Shown: positions 41,701 to 48,087 of the stretch, one piece after another
How the letters are laid out: every line of letters starts with the position of its first letter
How positions within the stretch are numbered: the stretch's first letter is position 1
Assembly: GCF_016862915.1 (NCBI RefSeq)
Contig: NZ_BONW01000011.1
Span: 1-64,000, forward strand
Length of the DNA: 64,000 nucleotides
Direction: 5' to 3'
Source of the DNA: Plantactinospora endophytica
GTDB taxonomy: Bacteria > Actinomycetota > Actinomycetes > Mycobacteriales > Micromonosporaceae
Translations under genes and position numbers: made by a program
The notes under the pieces: model-generated
What the model was told of the DNA's origin: nothing
Seen by the model: the letters and a program-made list of their open reading frames with translations, nothing else
The model's database searches: none

Positions 41701-43080
41701 ATGACCGAGTACGACGGGTCGACCGGCACGGTCGCGGAAGAACGCCCGCCGGACGCGCCGCAGGCGGGCCTGCCGGACGCGCTGTCGGTGGACCGGGTAC
41801 CCCTACTGTCCCGGTCCACCGGCCCGGCCGTGCGGACCGGCCCCGGTCGACCCGCGCTGGCCCGATGCGTGGCGGTCGAGCCGACGAAGTTCGCCGCCGC
41901 GTACTGGGGGCGGGCGCCGCTGCTGTCCCGGGCCGCCGAACTCGGCAACCCGGACGGGTTCACCGACCTGCTCGGCCCGGCCGACGCCGACGAACTGCTC
42001 AGCCGGCGCGGACTGCGTACCCCGTTCCTGCGGGCGGCGAAGAACGGGCAGGTGCTGCCGACCGGGCAGTACACCGGTAGCGGCGGTGCCGGGGCCGAGA
42101 TCGCCGACCAGGTACTCGACGAGCGGGTCCTCGGCCTCTACGCCGACGGCGCCACGCTGGTGCTCCAGGGACTGCACCGGACCTGGCCGCCACTGATCGA
42201 CTTCACCCGCGAGCTGAGCCTGGTCCTCGGCCAACCGCTTCAGGTGAACGCCTACCTGACCCCGCCGGGAAACCAGGGCTTCGCCACCCACTACGACACC
42301 CACGACGTCTTCGTGCTCCAGGTCGACGGGCACAAGCACTGGCAGATCCACGAGCCGGTGCTGCCCGACCCGCTGGAGCGGCAGCCGTGGGGCGGCCGGG
42401 CCGACGAGGTCGGGGCGGTCGCCGACGGGCCACCCGCACTGGACGTGGTACTCGGCCCCGGTGACGCGCTCTACCTGCCCCGGGGTTGGCTGCACAGCGC
42501 CCGGGCGCAGGACGACAGCAGCCTGCACCTGACCGTCGGCGTCCGGGCACTCACCCGGTACGCGATGGTCGAGGCGCTGCTGGAACTGGCCGCCGAGGAC
42601 CGGCGACTGCGCGCCCCGCTGCCGTTCGGGATGGACGTCGCCGAGGTCGACCAGGTCGAACCGGAACTCACCGAGACCGTCGAGGCGCTGCGGGACTGGC
42701 TGCTCCGGGCCGATCCGGCCGCGGTCGCCGCCCGGCTGCGGAACCGGGCCTGGCCGGCGGCCCGCCCCGCGCCGATCCGTCCACTCGCCCAGGCGGCGGC
42801 GATCCGGACGCTGCACGTCGACACCCGGATCGCCCCTCGGGAGGGCCTGCGCTGGCAGTTGACGGCCCAGCCGCCGGACGGGGCGGACGGCCCGGGTGAG
42901 GTGCTGCTGGCGCTCTTCGACCGGACGCTGACCTTTCCGGCCCAGTGCGCGCTGGCCGTCCGGGCGTTCCTCGCAGGCGGAGTGCACCGGGTCGGTGACC
43001 TGCCCGGACTCGACGACGACGCCGACCGGATCGTGCTGGCCCGGCGCCTGCTCCGCGAGGCGGTCGCCGTCCCGACCTGA
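41701..43080 (+). CDS. JmjC/cupin Fe(II)/2-oxoglutarate-dependent oxygenase (ribosomal-oxygenase-like)
   Basis: 459 aa. FAAAYWGRAPLLSRA (about 64-78) and LVLQGLHRTWPPLIDFTRELSLVLGQPLQVNAYLTPPGNQGFATHYDTHDVFVLQVDGHKHWQI show the JmjC core; iron ligands are His197 and Asp199 (HYD) and His265 in LPRGWLHSA. A C-terminal winged-helix-like region (about 330-459) resembles the YcfD/ROXA type of ribosomal oxygenase, which hydroxylates Arg or His of ribosomal proteins. Here the preceding gene encodes a repeat peptide only 15 bp away, so that peptide is an alternative substrate. No clear ribosome binding site before ATG 41701, consistent with coupling. Confidence 0.85.
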   Translation: MTEYDGSTGTVAEERPPDAPQAGLPDALSVDRVPLLSRSTGPAVRTGPGRPALARCVAVEPTKFAAAYWGRAPLLSRAAELGNPDGFTDLLGPADADELLSRRGLRTPFLRAAKNGQVLPTGQYTGSGGAGAEIADQVLDERVLGLYADGATLVLQGLHRTWPPLIDFTRELSLVLGQPLQVNAYLTPPGNQGFATHYDTHDVFVLQVDGHKHWQIHEPVLPDPLERQPWGGRADEVGAVADGPPALDVVLGPGDALYLPRGWLHSARAQDDSSLHLTVGVRALTRYAMVEALLELAAEDRRLRAPLPFGMDVAEVDQVEPELTETVEALRDWLLRADPAAVAARLRNRAWPAARPAPIRPLAQAAAIRTLHVDTRIAPREGLRWQLTAQPPDGADGPGEVLLALFDRTLTFPAQCALAVRAFLAGGVHRVGDLPGLDDDADRIVLARRLLREAVAVPT

Positions 43081-43247: not shown

Positions 43248-43916
43248 TCAGCGGAGCAGGCCGAACAGCGCCCCGGTGGTGACCAGCCCGGCGACCACGA
43301 CCGTCAGGGCGGAGCGTACGTCCAGGCCGGCGTGCCGGCGGTCGGCGAGTACCCGGGCCGGCGCCAGCCCGACGACCGGGCCGACCAGCGTCACCAGCAG
43401 TCCGAGCACCGGCATCGCCACCGCCAGGTCGCCGCCGTACCGGGTGCCGAGCGCCCGGGCGGCCAACCCGAGGGCGTACGCGGCGGCGGCGCCGAGCACG
43501 CCGAACAGCGCCAGCAACGGCCGGGTGGCCGGCGGCAGCTCGCCCGGGTTCCGAGCCCGGTCCAACAGCTCCCGTACCCCGTCGAGCAGCGCCTCCACGT
43601 CGGCCGGTACGCCGTTGCGGGGCACCGGCGGCTCGCCGACGCGCCGGTCGTTCGCACCGAGTTGGCCGCGCAGGATGCTCCACAGGTGCACCGACTCGGC
43701 CTCGGTACGGTCGACCTCCTCCTGGGCCGCCGACACCTCCGCCTCGGCCCGGCGTACCGACTGCTCCGCGTCGTGCACCGCCCGGTCGGCGGCGGCGCAC
43801 TGGCGGTCGTACCAGCCGTCCGCCTCGGCGCGTTCCGCCTCGGCCCGGCCGGTCAGCTCGGCGAGCCGCCGGATCGCCCGGGCGTAACTGAGGTCGCGTT
43901 CCAGGTCACCGCTCAT
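43248..43916 (-). CDS. Coiled-coil membrane protein, last gene of the FtsK-like cassette
   Basis: 222 aa, no recognised family. Residues 5-85 are charged and heptad-like (RAIRRLAELTGRAEAERAEAD, AVHDAEQSVRRAEAEVSAAQEEVDRTEAE), a probable coiled coil. Three hydrophobic helices fill the C-terminal half: LLALFGVLGAAAAYALGLAA, LAVAMPVLGLLVTLVGPVVGL and ALTVVVAGLVTTGALFGLL. ATG 43916 overlaps the FtsK-like gene stop (ATGA). As the ATPase has no membrane segment, this protein is the likely membrane anchor or channel partner. Confidence 0.7.
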   Translation of the reverse strand: MSGDLERDLSYARAIRRLAELTGRAEAERAEADGWYDRQCAAADRAVHDAEQSVRRAEAEVSAAQEEVDRTEAESVHLWSILRGQLGANDRRVGEPPVPRNGVPADVEALLDGVRELLDRARNPGELPPATRPLLALFGVLGAAAAYALGLAARALGTRYGGDLAVAMPVLGLLVTLVGPVVGLAPARVLADRRHAGLDVRSALTVVVAGLVTTGALFGLLR

Positions 43917-46720
43917 CGGGACGGTCCATAAGGGATGATCACTTGGCCGGTGCGGTGCACCGAACGGTCGAAGAAGAGCCCGCGCCACGGCCGTGGGTAC
44001 CAGTCCGGGCCGCCGCCGGCTCCCGGGTAGAGCGCGGAGGTGAGTTCCGCACCCTGCACGTCGAGCGCCACCCAGGCACCGATCTGGTCGGTACGCGACG
44101 CCGGGCCGCCGAGGTCCACCCGCATCCGGGCCACCCCACGCCACCAGGCCAGCGTGTGGGTACGCCGCTCCGGCCCGTTGTGCAGCACGTGCCGTAGGTG
44201 GTCCAGTCCGGAGCGCCCGCCGACGCTGGTGCCGAGCTGGCCGGCTGCCGCGTCGACCGCGTACAGCAGCAGGTAGTGCGGTTCGCCGGGGGCGCTGCCG
44301 GAGCCGAGCCCGTTGGCCGTCTCGGCCATCAGTTCGCCGATGTCGTCCTCGGAGTACCAGGCGGCGTCGGTGCCGAGCGCCTCGTAGAGTGCCCGGGCGG
44401 CGGTGTCGGCGTCCGGGTCCAGACAGGCGATGGAGAACCGGGCGGTACCGGGCCGGTGCTGGCGGCGCAGCGACCGGGCCGCCGCGTCCAGCACGGCGCA
44501 CGCCTCGTCCACTCCGGTGCCGAGTACCGCCAGGTTCCGTCCCGGTGCCCGCGGCAGCCGCAGCCCGGCCGACCTGGCCTGCACGTCGATGATCTCGCCG
44601 AGCAGCGCCACCGGGCCGCGCGCCCCGCCGGTGGTCCGCTCCGGTCCGCCGGGCCGGTCGGCGCCGGTCGGCGGTGCGGTGTGCTCCGGCCCCACCCCCT
44701 CGGGCCAGATCGCCCCGCCGGCCGCGCGGTCGCCGGCACGGGCCGGTACGGGTTCGCCGGCCGGACGCAGCGCGACGAAGTCCGGTGCCTCGTCCAGCCG
44801 GGGGATCGCGTCGCCGTCGAAGAGCCGGGCCGGCGCCGCGTCCGGCGGTCGCATCCGCCACAGCCGGTGCTGGAGATCGCTCCAGGTACCCCAGTCGCTG
44901 GCCGCCGGGATCCGGGCCACCTGGTTGCCCTCGGCCATCCCGGACTCGGCGTTGACGATCGCGTGGTGCCGGGGCAGCACCTGGGCGGCGTCGTTGCGCT
45001 CGGCCAGGATGCGCAGTGCCTTGGGCAGCGCGATCCGCAACGTGAACTGGGCGACCAGCGCCGGCCGGCCCCACAGCGCCTCGATGCCCCGGACGTCCTG
45101 CGAGGCCAGCACCAGGTGGATGCCCTGGGAGCGGCCCCGCCGGGCCAGGTCCTCCAGCAGGTCGGCGGCCTCCCGGGCCACCGCGTCCCGGCCGGCGAGC
45201 AGCATCTGGAACTCGTCCACCACGGCGACGATCCTCGGCCAGCGGCCGGTCGGGTCCACCGCCCGCAGCTCGGACAGCTTGGTCACCTCGTGCCGCTTGG
45301 CGGCGTCCGCCCGACGGCGCAGCTCCTCGGCGAGGAACCGCAGCAGGGCCAGCCCGAACTCCCGGTCCGTGTTGACATTGATCCCGACCAGCCGCATGTG
45401 CGGCAGCCAGCTCGGGTCGCGGCGGCCCTGGGCGAACCGGGCGAAGGACACCCCCTCCTTGAAGTCGAGCAGATAGAACTCCAGCTCGGCTGGGGAGTAG
45501 CGGGAGGCGAGCGAGCCGATCCAGGCGAAGATCAGATTCGTCTTGCCGGTGCCGGACGGGCCGCCGATCAACGCGTGCGGCGGATAGTCGCCGAGGGTCA
45601 GCGTCACCGGCCGGCCCTGCGGACCGTCCCCGATCGGTGCGACCAGACTGACGGCAGAGTCCTCCCGCCACATCTCGTCGAGCGGCGGCAGCAGGTCGGT
45701 GAAGGGGGTCGGCGGCGGGCCGGCGTTCACCCGGGTCGCCACCTCCCGGCAGGTCTCGGTGACCAGGTGGGCCGGCGGCGCCGGGTCGGGGCGGACGAGG
45801 AGGTCGGGGCAGGTGTCCAGCCGGGCGCCGTCGCCGTCGACCACCGCCCGGTGCACGTCCGGCTCGTCGGGCAGCGCGATGCCGCGTACCACCAGGTGTA
45901 CGCCGCAGGCGGCGCCGGTCCGGGCCACCCGGTCGAGTTGCCCCCGTTCGTGCCGGGACAACTCGTCGCCGCCGAGCAGTACCGCCACCCGCCACGGTTC
46001 GGGGCGCCGGCCGGTCGCGGCGGCCAGCTCGCGCAGCGAGGCGTACTCGCCGGCCAGCACGGTTTCGTTGATGCGGCGGATCTGGTCGACGAGGTCGTCG
46101 AGGAGTCGGGCCAGCCCGCCCGGCCCGACGAAGGTCAGCAGCCCGGCGGTGGAGAGCGGGGCGAACCCGGCCAGCCCGCCGCCGAGGTGCTCGGGGTCGT
46201 AGCCGACCAGGCGTACCGAGCCGGGATCGGCCCGGCCGAGGGACCGGAGCAGCAGCGCGGCGACGACGGCGTCGGAGCCGGCCCGGTCGGCCCCGGACAG
46301 GTGCACGTGCCCGGCGTCGAGCAGCGGTACCAGCGCGGGTACCGGCACGCTGCCGGGCAGGTGCACGGTGCCGATCCGCAACGGTCCCGGTGCCTCGCCC
46401 CGGACCACGGGGGTGGGCCGCCAGCCCTGCCAGTCGGTGCCGGCGGCGCCGGGTGCCTCCCGGGTGGCGGCGTCGGCGGCCCGGGCGGCGAGCCGGGTGA
46501 TCTCCGCCCCGTACCGGTCGGCCAGGTCGGCGATCCGGCGGTCCCGTTCCGCACCGACCCGGGCGGGTACCCGGGTGGCGGCGTCCCGGATCCGGCGCAG
46601 CCGCTCCTCGGCGCTGCCGAGTTCGGTCCGCGCCGCCGCGAGGCGGGACCGGGACGCGCCCAGCGCGTGCGACAGCATGGTGCGGACCCGGTCGACGAGC
46701 TGGGTCCGTACGTCAGGCAT
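43913..46720 (-). CDS. FtsK/SpoIIIE-type (EccC-like) ATPase with three RecA-like domains
   Basis: 935 aa. Residues 1-85 are an Arg/Ala-rich coiled coil. Domain 1 (about 105-345) has a degenerate P-loop (HLSGADRAGSDAVV) and a Walker-B-like VAVLLGGDE. Domain 2 (about 350-600) is canonical FtsK/SpoIIIE: Walker A GGPSGTGKTN at about 384-393, LLDFKEGVSFARF, Walker B IVAVVDEFQ at about 492-500, and ASQDVRGIE. Domain 3 (about 680-930) is again degenerate (NLAVLGTGVDEAC, YLLLYAVDAA). This order resembles EccC of type VII secretion, though no membrane segment is present. ATG 46720 overlaps the previous gene by 8 bp. Role: nucleotide-driven translocation of protein or DNA; which one is open. Confidence 0.78.
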   Translation of the reverse strand: MPDVRTQLVDRVRTMLSHALGASRSRLAAARTELGSAEERLRRIRDAATRVPARVGAERDRRIADLADRYGAEITRLAARAADAATREAPGAAGTDWQGWRPTPVVRGEAPGPLRIGTVHLPGSVPVPALVPLLDAGHVHLSGADRAGSDAVVAALLLRSLGRADPGSVRLVGYDPEHLGGGLAGFAPLSTAGLLTFVGPGGLARLLDDLVDQIRRINETVLAGEYASLRELAAATGRRPEPWRVAVLLGGDELSRHERGQLDRVARTGAACGVHLVVRGIALPDEPDVHRAVVDGDGARLDTCPDLLVRPDPAPPAHLVTETCREVATRVNAGPPPTPFTDLLPPLDEMWREDSAVSLVAPIGDGPQGRPVTLTLGDYPPHALIGGPSGTGKTNLIFAWIGSLASRYSPAELEFYLLDFKEGVSFARFAQGRRDPSWLPHMRLVGINVNTDREFGLALLRFLAEELRRRADAAKRHEVTKLSELRAVDPTGRWPRIVAVVDEFQMLLAGRDAVAREAADLLEDLARRGRSQGIHLVLASQDVRGIEALWGRPALVAQFTLRIALPKALRILAERNDAAQVLPRHHAIVNAESGMAEGNQVARIPAASDWGTWSDLQHRLWRMRPPDAAPARLFDGDAIPRLDEAPDFVALRPAGEPVPARAGDRAAGGAIWPEGVGPEHTAPPTGADRPGGPERTTGGARGPVALLGEIIDVQARSAGLRLPRAPGRNLAVLGTGVDEACAVLDAAARSLRRQHRPGTARFSIACLDPDADTAARALYEALGTDAAWYSEDDIGELMAETANGLGSGSAPGEPHYLLLYAVDAAAGQLGTSVGGRSGLDHLRHVLHNGPERRTHTLAWWRGVARMRVDLGGPASRTDQIGAWVALDVQGAELTSALYPGAGGGPDWYPRPWRGLFFDRSVHRTGQVIIPYGPSR

Positions 46721-47579
46721 GGGTGTCCCGGGGTGCGCGAGCGGTGACCGGACGCTGGTCGACGCCGAGCCGGCGCATCAGCAGTCCGGTGAGGACCCCG
46801 GCGGCGACCGCCGGATCGGCCGGATGCGGCTGCTCCACCGGCTCCTTCGGCGGCGGCATCCGGCAGACCCGGCTGAGCAGGGTGTCCAGCACCCCCGGCG
46901 GCAGGTTGGGCACCAGCTCCTGGACCTGCCCGGTGACCTCGCGGCGCAGCCTCGGCAGGTCGGCCGCCCGGGGCTGGTGGCCGAGCAGCGCGCCGGCCAG
47001 GTCGCGGAGCATCGGCGGGGCCACCGAGGCGAGTCCCAGCCCGACGTTCGCCTCCACCGCCCGCAGCTCGGTGTGCAGCCGGGTCCGGTCGCCGGAACGG
47101 ACCCCGTCGGTCACCCGGCGGAGCAACTCCTCGGCGTCGGTGATCTCGTGGTCCGGCTTCGGTGCCGGGGTGTCCCGCCGGTCGAACAGCTCGGCCACCC
47201 GGACCGACCACCAGCCGCCGGTCGCCGCCGGGGCGACCTTGCGGACCGGCCCGGACGAGTCGTCGGCGGTACCGGCGCCGCGGCTGGGCGGCGGTCGCTC
47301 CGGCCCGGGGGCGGGGCTGCCGTCCCGGGCCAGGCCGATCGCCGCCAGGTAGGTCGCGAACTGGTCCTGGGCGAGCCGCAGGGCGTGACCGGCGGTCTCC
47401 AGGTGCTCCGTGGCGGCCGAGAGTTCGGGTACGCCCATCGGGTCGGCCGACTCCTGCCGGACCCAGCGCAGCCGCTCGGAGGCGAGTTTGAGGTGGTCGA
47501 GTGCCTTGATCACCAACTCGACCGGCAGCTCGTCGGAGGCGGCCCGGACCCGGGCGCCCAACTCCTCGATGATGGACAT
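46713..47579 (-). CDS. Helical cassette protein of unknown function
   Basis: 288 aa, unrecognised. The N-terminus is helical (MSIIEELGARVRAASDELPVELVIKALDHLKLASERLRWVRQ, ATEHLETAGHALRLAQDQFATYLAAIGL), reminiscent of WXG/ESX-type helical hairpins. A Pro/Ser/Gly-rich linker (about 87-110) separates it from a second helical part (about 140-260). It contains no membrane segment. It starts 10 bp after the small helical protein stop and overlaps the FtsK-like gene by 8 bp, so it belongs to the same operon and may bridge substrate and ATPase. Confidence 0.65.
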   Translation of the reverse strand: MSIIEELGARVRAASDELPVELVIKALDHLKLASERLRWVRQESADPMGVPELSAATEHLETAGHALRLAQDQFATYLAAIGLARDGSPAPGPERPPPSRGAGTADDSSGPVRKVAPAATGGWWSVRVAELFDRRDTPAPKPDHEITDAEELLRRVTDGVRSGDRTRLHTELRAVEANVGLGLASVAPPMLRDLAGALLGHQPRAADLPRLRREVTGQVQELVPNLPPGVLDTLLSRVCRMPPPKEPVEQPHPADPAVAAGVLTGLLMRRLGVDQRPVTARAPRDTHA

Positions 47580-47588
47580 CCGCGTGCT

Positions 47589-47849
47589 CTACAGCGTCGA
47601 GACGTAGAGCTGGGCGTGTTCGACGGCGGCCAGCGTCGCGGCGAGGCACTCCTCCAACTCCTGGGCGGCCTGCGAGAGCGACGCCTGCGCGGCGTCGACA
47701 GTGGAGTGTCCACTTCCCTCCAACGCCCCGGCCAGGGTCTGCTGCGCCTCGGCGAGCTTGTCGCTGGCGGCCTGCACCGCAGCCTGGCCGTCACCGATCT
47801 GCTGCAGTGCGGCGTCGATGGCCGCTTTCAGCTCGGCGACACTCGCCAC
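47589..47849 (-). CDS. Small WXG100-like helical protein, first gene of the FtsK-like cassette
   Basis: 86 aa, almost entirely helical: ELKAAIDAALQQIGDGQAAVQAASDKLAEAQQTLAGAL, a turn GSGHST (about 45-50), then VDAAQASLSQAAQELEECLAATLAAVEHAQLYVSTL. Size and helix-turn-helix layout match ESX/WXG100 substrates, but the WXG motif and any Trp are missing, so membership is inferred from shape and from the neighbouring EccC-like ATPase. GTG 47849 has GGAGG about 8 nt upstream. Confidence 0.65.
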   Translation of the reverse strand: MASVAELKAAIDAALQQIGDGQAAVQAASDKLAEAQQTLAGALEGSGHSTVDAAQASLSQAAQELEECLAATLAAVEHAQLYVSTL

Positions 47850-47875
47850 GGCGAAACCTCCAGGGGGCGGGGAGG

Positions 47876-47889
47876 GCTCTTATTAGAGC
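47876..47889. promoter_or_regulatory. Dyad in the FtsK-cassette promoter region
   Basis: GCTCT-TATT-AGAGC, an AT-containing inverted repeat 27 bp before the cassette start, with a TAAGCT -10-like sequence (minus strand) just upstream of it. Possible operator. Confidence 0.4.
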
Positions 47890-48087
47890 TTATCCCGATC
47901 AGCGGTCCACAGCGCCCCGGGCGTTTGCTGCCCGGCTGTCCGATCCCAGGTGGTCCGGCCGACAGCGGACATAGGCCGACCTTCCTCCCACTTTGGGCCA
48001 CCGGGCGGTTACTCAGTCGGATCCCTGACAGTTGTCTGGCCGAACCGGCGAGATCCGGCTCAACCGTGGAAGTTCCGGCTGGCGGGA

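Follow-up and report, generated by a model that had tools for sequence, protein, structure and literature searches.

In a 64,000-nucleotide stretch of the Plantactinospora endophytica genome (contig NZ_BONW01000011.1, positions 1 to 64,000; hereafter the window) we analysed a four-gene cassette that encodes an EccC/EssC-like ATPase, a membrane protein and two proteins with helical hairpins. Because of the homology, the domain order, the separate membrane subunit and the hairpin partner, this cassette is best read as a minimal type VII-like translocase that would act on the two hairpins as a pair, and we give this reading slightly better than an even chance. The genes lie on the minus strand between 43248 and 47849, and all four open reading frames were confirmed as placed in a preliminary description of the window. 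The gene for a 288-residue protein overlaps that of the ATPase by 8 bp, and the ATPase gene overlaps the membrane protein gene by 4 bp (ATGA), as also described there; a 9-bp gap separates the genes for the 86-residue protein, here called Esx86, and the 288-residue protein. Codon-position GC content recovered three of the four genes and missed the membrane protein gene because its frame continues into the ATPase. The reality of all four is supported by their conservation.

In such a translocase the ATPase, with an N-terminal helix and an active block between two degenerate RecA-like blocks, would be anchored to the membrane by the transmembrane protein encoded behind it, possibly as a hexamer and through docking of coiled coils. 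The two proteins together would correspond to one EccC polypeptide minus one ATPase block. Esx86 may pair with the hairpin domain found in the 288-residue protein, in the manner of EsxA and EsxB, and the pair would offer a tyrosine-containing C-terminal end to the ATPase, the tyrosine perhaps acting as a signal. ATP hydrolysis in the middle block would then thread or remodel this pair, either at the membrane or across it, and the remainder of the 288-residue protein would be the passenger. Such a machine may have a housekeeping task in the envelope or the growth of these filamentous actinomycetes, which the strong conservation and synteny favour over conflict.

Relationship of the ATPase to EccC

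A profile built from 46 family members and one built from 16 EccC proteins were colinear over the span from DUF to D2 (99.9; 4.7e-34; residues 124-872). We assign the EccC counterparts of the outer blocks by this colinearity, for which DUF-D1-D2 is the best register. Single-block comparisons beyond those in Table 1 gave scores of 62 for the C block with the DUF and 41 with D3. It had been proposed that only the middle one of three RecA-like blocks carries an intact Walker A and B, and this holds across the family, where the middle motifs are kept in 45 of 46 members and GxxxxGK[ST] is found at the outer-block equivalents in 0 of 46. Degenerate RecA domains are thus the most likely identity of the outer blocks. 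The profiles are the basis for this, because the AlphaFold2 model of the ATPase, made with 23 sequences, has a mean predicted local distance difference test score (pLDDT) of 39.3; we used only the N-terminal helix from this model. The ATPase has no transmembrane segment by hydropathy and no FHA match in Pfam.

The Pfam family FtsK_SpoIIIE matches the middle block at 1.2e-22. Among the NCBIfam models the ranking is EccCa (6.5e-24), EssC (8.8e-22), EccCb (7e-16) and FtsK (6.4e-6), all under their cut-offs, with EccC as the closest of the curated families; the ATPase scores 84.6 bits with TIGR03924 (cut-off 509) and 24 bits with the FtsK equivalog model (cut-off 1566). The best PDB match is 4nh0 (9.8e-21), entered as 'Cell division FtsK/SpoIIIE', which we take to be EccC of T. 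curvata, followed by YukB and EccC5, with FtsK at 5e-6.

The resemblance to EccC noted in the preliminary description therefore stands as homology, but EccC is not the nearest kin. In profile and tree the ATPase lies nearer to the coiled-coil EssC-like ATPases with three blocks that occur in TerY-P/CoCoNuT loci. A tblastn search for plasmid relatives returned six records, of which we examined five, L203, L204, L210 and L211 among them. The window family profile matched the ATPase of L204, from Caballeronia, over residues 139-931 at 8.9e-62; the smaller EccC profile of 16 proteins matched the same ATPase at 3.1e-15. A tree built from 36 middle-domain rows, with long branches flagged, has a 97/86 branch that splits L203, L204, L210, L211 and the actinobacterial families from EccC, the Rothia sequence L212 and L007. 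The last, which we take to be the FtsK of the same genome, sits outside the clade of the window ATPase on a very long branch. Since the ATPase is nearer to these published ATPases, the kind of system is already known.

The membrane protein

The membrane part had been placed on a separate polypeptide, and hydropathy agrees. The 222-residue protein has three C-terminal hydrophobic segments (134-152, 164-182 and 200-218) and the other three proteins have none. Its sole Pfam match is to intermediate filament (0.0024). In 41 of 43 loci the gene next after that of the ATPase is predicted to encode a protein with hydrophobic segments at its C-terminal end; with L204 uncounted, where the segment lies in a CARF protein, this becomes 40 of 43, or 40 of the 42 actinobacterial loci. 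The count used simple hydropathy and approximate starts, and matched proteins by position and topology, not homology. The presence of a transmembrane protein at this place is a new observation, and the protein would supply the part that earlier authors found missing. Because it is encoded directly behind the ATPase, the four-gene system, with three genes in other lineages, offers a way to test what type VII-like transport minimally requires.

Two related hairpins

Esx86 contains no tryptophan, as first noted, and AlphaFold2 predicts the two-helix form (helices 4-45 and 48-85; pLDDT 85; predicted template modelling score 0.59). Each of its 45 orthologues is 86 residues long. In a broad alignment of 35 rows, G45 and Tyr82 are present in all 35, G-[ST] in 34 and GxxH in 30. 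L170, a member of Pfam DUF6244 that was left out of this alignment, has neither an equivalent of the terminal Tyr82 nor the GSxH turn. Tryptophan occurs in 0 of 46 window-type rows, and W-D-G stands in register at the turn in one of the 35 rows, L133 (W43). This protein (L133:10037-10297) is an Esx86 orthologue from another genus of the family, in a like four-gene setting, and its best Pfam match is WXG100 (3.3e-4). As G45 is invariant and the W-D-G of L133 falls in register, descent of the hairpins from a WXG100 ancestor with loss of the tryptophan is the simplest reading.

Esx86, which the preliminary description called WXG100-sized and two-helical, shows a weak and consistent similarity to WXG100, whose model TIGR03930 matches 31 of 32 Esx86 orthologues (E up to 0.05); the matches of Esx86 itself lie under the curated cut-offs. 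Searched against 177,635 PDB sequences, the Esx86 profile matched best to 3q4h_B, an ESX protein ('Low molecular weight protein antigen 7', presumably EsxH), with the alignment in register and ungapped; its E of 0.065 is not significant alone. The WXG-bearing relatives in L169, L204 and L211 likewise have a tyrosine near the C-terminal end; the WXG proteins of L169 and L204, compared as single sequences, gave no match to Esx86. Weak matches of Esx86 were also seen to Pfam DUF6244 (PF19757, an 87-residue family; full-length, 0.17) and, in PADLOC, to ZorA (0.001 and worse).

The 288-residue protein had been described as a helical linker. This can be refined, as the protein starts with a second hairpin related to Esx86, with a profile score of 89.6%. 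In controls, none of 60 column-shuffled profiles scored as high as the real one, and a reversed profile and other coiled coils scored low. Two of 26 circular rotations did score as high, probably because they move only the tail. The helices of the ATPase and of the membrane protein gave under 1%. From these profiles we conclude that the two hairpins are related. The C-terminal part of the 288-residue protein had no Pfam match better than 0.4 and none in NCBIfam or PADLOC up to an E of 1, and accessory proteins of L163, L164, L169, L203 and L204, compared as single sequences, matched neither the domains of the 288-residue protein nor Esx86.

Distribution and conservation

A genome scan with the ATPase gave 57 loci. 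We excluded L069, whose shorter FtsK-like protein bears transmembrane segments and was matched at 348-541 only. The remaining 56 Micromonosporaceae loci contain Esx86 in 45 cases, the 288-residue gene in 46 and the membrane protein gene in 55, the missing genes falling where the analysed stretch begins or ends. Co-occurrence of the genes is far beyond chance. The gene order, including the NYN/PIN-like and cupin neighbours described below, recurs in loci from Micromonospora, Salinispora, Verrucosispora and Plantactinospora. The Esx86 profile found 95 of 121 family genomes, 94 at better than 1e-16 and one at 0.005. Among 246 genomes of the class, the 288-residue profile found three, all in the same family, and the ATPase profile 38 at 1e-30 (three candidates scored per genome). 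Identity to the window proteins is 84-100% for Esx86, 78-93% for the ATPase, 55-90% for the 288-residue protein and 51-93% for the membrane protein. Esx86 is thus the most conserved member, with a mean column identity of 96%, and this pattern of a syntenic cassette with a conserved hairpin would be unlike a toxin or defence system. The second hairpin, the likely WXG ancestry of both hairpins and this synteny in Micromonosporaceae appear to be new.

Outside the window type we fetched 20 regions by ATPase matches, of 48 matches listed. A gene for a hairpin of 86-88 residues lies within about 1.7 kb in 15 of these, 12 found by a Micromonosporaceae-only profile, L163 and L164 by reading and alignment, and L169 as a WXG100-like protein just under the Pfam cut-off. 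Pfam WXG100 did not match the hairpins of the related cassettes L155, L149, L163 and L203, and L164 matched only WXG100_2, at 0.29. A further 20 regions, fetched by Esx86 matches and so biased for that gene, comprised 17 strong matches, with the ATPase in 16 and the 288-residue gene in 17, and three weak ones, with a paralogous ATPase in two. In L142 (8973-10069) the Esx86 and 288-residue genes stand without an adjoining ATPase or membrane protein gene. The L170 gene beside a paralogous ATPase is a DUF6244 member (2.1e-27); Esx86 falls far under the cut-off of that family. A DUF6244 gene on contig C29 of the P. endophytica genome has no ATPase within the 3.2 kb covered. Pfam DUF6244 and the related hairpins of 86-87 residues gain a genomic context here. 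The majority of this soil bacterium's close relatives retain the cassette. This version, with a separate membrane part of its own, might reveal the workings of the simplest machine of the kind.

Among the plasmid relatives, L204 is of the TerY-P/CARF kind, and the WXG100 protein encoded there, an 89-residue neighbour, passes the Pfam cut-off (3.6e-7). L210, from Deinococcus, has an upstream gene with a C-terminal hydrophobic segment and a downstream WXG100-like gene, and L211, from Rhodococcus, a WXG100-like gene and TerD neighbours; both WXG100-like genes are under the Pfam cut-off. On the Rhodococcus plasmid L203 (3526-10396) the genes for Hsp70, TPR and GrpE proteins are followed by those for the ATPase, a protein with one transmembrane segment and an 86-residue hairpin. 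The position of the three directly upstream of the ATPase/hairpin cassette suggests a chaperone link. By eye, L203, L204, L169 and L211 carry longer coiled-coil proteins with an apparent extra C-terminal domain; Pfam found no domain in those of L169 and L203, the two scanned. The coiled-coil proteins L169:4883-5899 and L211:6667-7611 share a C-terminal domain that looks ParB-nuclease-like by eye, with no domain found by Pfam in the former. A rifampin ADP-ribosyltransferase gene (Arr) is nearby in L169.

Weighing the explanations

Several observations weigh against a type VII-like translocase. Esx86 has no tryptophan, and its WXG100 scores are under the curated cut-offs of Pfam and NCBIfam. The type VII secretion signal is YxxxD/E, and a search of Esx86 and the 288-residue protein found none. 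Comparison of the Esx86 model with solved structures by VIA-align and Foldseek gave no ESX or HP0062 chain in the best 50 rows of either; the 495 Foldseek matches at E up to 10, with 0 at E up to 0.001, included many unrelated helical hairpins and long helices. The predicted hairpin fold is hence not diagnostic of ESX. The ATPase has one block fewer than EccC, where D3 is the signal-binding domain, and the loss would matter if D3 is the missing block; a register shifted by one domain (N-D1, middle-D2, C-D3) also scores, at 6.3e-21, which leaves that block uncertain. Linkage to a hairpin gene is incomplete as well. Five of the 20 ATPase-fetched loci are without one of 86-88 residues, namely L165-L168, which carry longer coiled-coil proteins, and L171, whose paralogous ATPase (L171:5947-8868) has lost the Walker A lysine and the Walker B glutamate in a frame still open and is apparently a dead motor. 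Two paralogous ATPase/membrane protein pairs of the P. endophytica genome, L010 (G000:C22:134239-136590) and L012 (G000:C1:175391-176995), have no adjacent hairpin.

The strongest competing explanation is a membrane-tethered remodelling machine inside the cell, in which the ATPase would extract, assemble or disassemble a hairpin complex at the membrane, for example at septa or growing tips, with no export. The lack of EccB, EccD and EccE pore parts among the genes scanned is in keeping with this, strong conservation and synteny fit a housekeeping task, and the SmeA-SffA pair, likened here by its published description only (PMC4255298), would offer a precedent. Against it, members of the ATPase family occur together with WXG100-like genes and, in L203, L204, L169 and L211, with longer coiled-coil proteins, as would fit passengers; we regard it as unlikely, though well worth keeping in mind. 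A system for defence or for conflict between bacteria, the role suggested for the TerY-P/CoCoNuT relatives, draws on the nearest described relatives, which stand in such loci (L204; PMC11090510), and on PADLOC, where the ATPase domain matches mad8 (1.1e-18) and SspH (1.6e-17). However, Pfam, NCBIfam and PADLOC show no other defence gene or toxin domain in the cassette, Esx86 has barely diversified at 96% mean column identity, the hairpin is present in 94 of 121 family genomes at better than 1e-16 and weakly in one more, and synteny is conserved in Micromonosporaceae, all of which makes this quite improbable. A DNA translocase similar to FtsK or TraB could be read from the membership of the middle block in the FtsK/SpoIIIE superfamily. 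We rejected it on the NCBIfam and PDB scores, where the EccC/EssC models and structures are far above FtsK; the Pfam list for the ATPase holds no FtsK gamma domain, L007 branches elsewhere, and the chance that remains for it is very slim. The movement of DNA or a role in defence, both raised in the preliminary description, thus find little support, given the far lower FtsK scores and the conserved synteny. A full ESX locus was also rejected. The absence of EccB, EccD, EccE and mycosin noted earlier was borne out by the Pfam matches of the cassette and 12 flanking genes, and the EccB genes of this genome sit on contigs C16 and C32.

The proposed translocase may further represent a distinct type VII class and the smallest complete one, with the membrane part of EccC as a separate transmembrane protein and, as substrate, two related hairpins that have lost the tryptophan of WXG, one free and one fused to a passenger domain. 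In filamentous actinomycetes it would then be a conserved exporter with a housekeeping task and not a mobile conflict element. We put this fuller proposal somewhat short of an even chance.

Relation to known systems

TerY-P and Type III-A CoCoNuT loci are described as having coiled-coil EssC-like ATPases beside WXG100 genes and as 'mobile versions of T7SS' (PMC3482391, PMC11090510). The authors of the CoCoNuT account state that EssC-like ATPases without transmembrane segments should work differently since the membrane domains are absent (PMC11090510). The window ATPase shares with these proteins the three RecA/HerA blocks of which only the middle is active, an N-terminal coiled coil in place of the transmembrane and FHA regions (here helix 2-88, at moderate confidence), the small WXG100-like genes nearby and, judging by the match to L204 and the branch with L204, L210 and L211, common ancestry. 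In contrast to them, the window type is chromosomal and, by its conserved synteny, apparently not mobile, with no TerY-P, McrBC or nuclease genes among the neighbouring genes scanned, and it has a coupled protein with three transmembrane segments, tryptophan-less hairpins and a hairpin fused to a further domain.

With ESX (T7SSa) the cassette has in common the core of an EccC-like ATPase and a helical hairpin, perhaps as one of a pair. A survey of T7SSa-j describes membrane-bound ATPases with four predicted NTPase domains (PMC11217815); unlike these, the window ATPase has three blocks and no transmembrane segment, and EccB, EccD, EccE and MycP are lacking among the genes scanned. Pfam scans around the window cassette found no ESX component or conjugation gene, and distant loci, with neighbours mostly unscanned, also appear to stand alone. 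The H. pylori 'WXG100 secretion system' of HP0062 and HP0066 has been reported (PMC4978471, PMC3397514), and by its description HP0062 retains the tryptophan (WRD), unlike Esx86. SmeA-SffA is presented as a pair of a small membrane protein and an FtsK-like protein of sporulation septa, found in streptomycetes, Kitasatospora and Catenulispora and absent from the other actinobacteria considered there (PMC4255298). A type VII list for M. lupini has one eccC outside its three clusters (PMC4182475). Of the MADS and Ssp components, the ATPase domain alone matches mad8 and SspH in PADLOC; apart from the ATPase and Esx86, the three further proteins searched gave no match there. Stand-alone WXG100/FtsK operons were reportedly described by Anantharaman in 2012. 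Our searches of the open literature, of limited depth, turned up no description of the four-gene cassette.

Features of the cassette and neighbouring genes

Table 1. Features of the cassette, with window coordinates, strand and the evidence for each
Feature	Position	Strand	Evidence
Esx86, 86-residue helical hairpin	47589..47849	-	Open reading frame, GTG start, ribosome-binding site GGAGG at 47857-47861
Hairpin turn G45-S46-G47-H48, G45 as the probable Gly of a former WXG	47706..47717	-	35-row alignment
Conserved Tyr82, fifth residue from the C-terminus (YxxxL end)	47604..47606	-	35/35 rows
288-residue protein, N-terminal hairpin domain and C-terminal helical domain	46713..47579	-	Open reading frame; 46/56 Micromonosporaceae ATPase loci
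Second hairpin domain, residues 1-86, related to Esx86	47322..47579	-	Profile comparison 89.6%, P 1.9e-6, 80 columns
C-terminal part, residues 118-275, probably helical	46755..47228	-	Conserved in orthologue alignment
935-residue EccC/EssC-like ATPase without transmembrane helices	43913..46720	-	Pfam, NCBIfam and PDB matches
N-terminal long helix, residues 2-88, presumed coiled coil	46457..46720	-	AlphaFold2, 10-residue means 47-81
N block, probably degenerate RecA-like	45716..46438	-	EccC D2 93.3%, D1 90.2%, own middle block 95.9%, DUF 8.9%
Middle block, EccC D1-type ATPase, predicted active	44771..45715	-	EccC D1 99.9%, 1.3e-32
Walker A GPSGTGKT, residues 387-394	45539..45562	-	Intact in 45/46 family members
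Walker B VAVVDE, residues 498-503	45212..45229	-	DE in 45/46 family members
C block, probably degenerate RecA-like	43916..44653	-	EccC D2 78.5%, own N block 95.5%, colinear in full alignment
222-residue membrane protein, presumed coiled coil then three C-terminal transmembrane segments	43248..43916	-	Hydropathy
Upstream element ATAAGCTCTAAT, promoter-like	47882..47893	-	TA[AG]GCTCTAAT near-invariant in 37 aligned upstream regions

The cassette is convergent with a JmjC_2 cupin gene (41701-43080; Pfam 2e-29). Such a gene is often syntenic beside the cassette, farther off in some loci, and no functional link between the two was found. On the other side, the upstream neighbour is a 144-residue NYN/PIN-like gene with weak Pfam matches. 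The near-invariant element upstream of Esx86 is probably its promoter.

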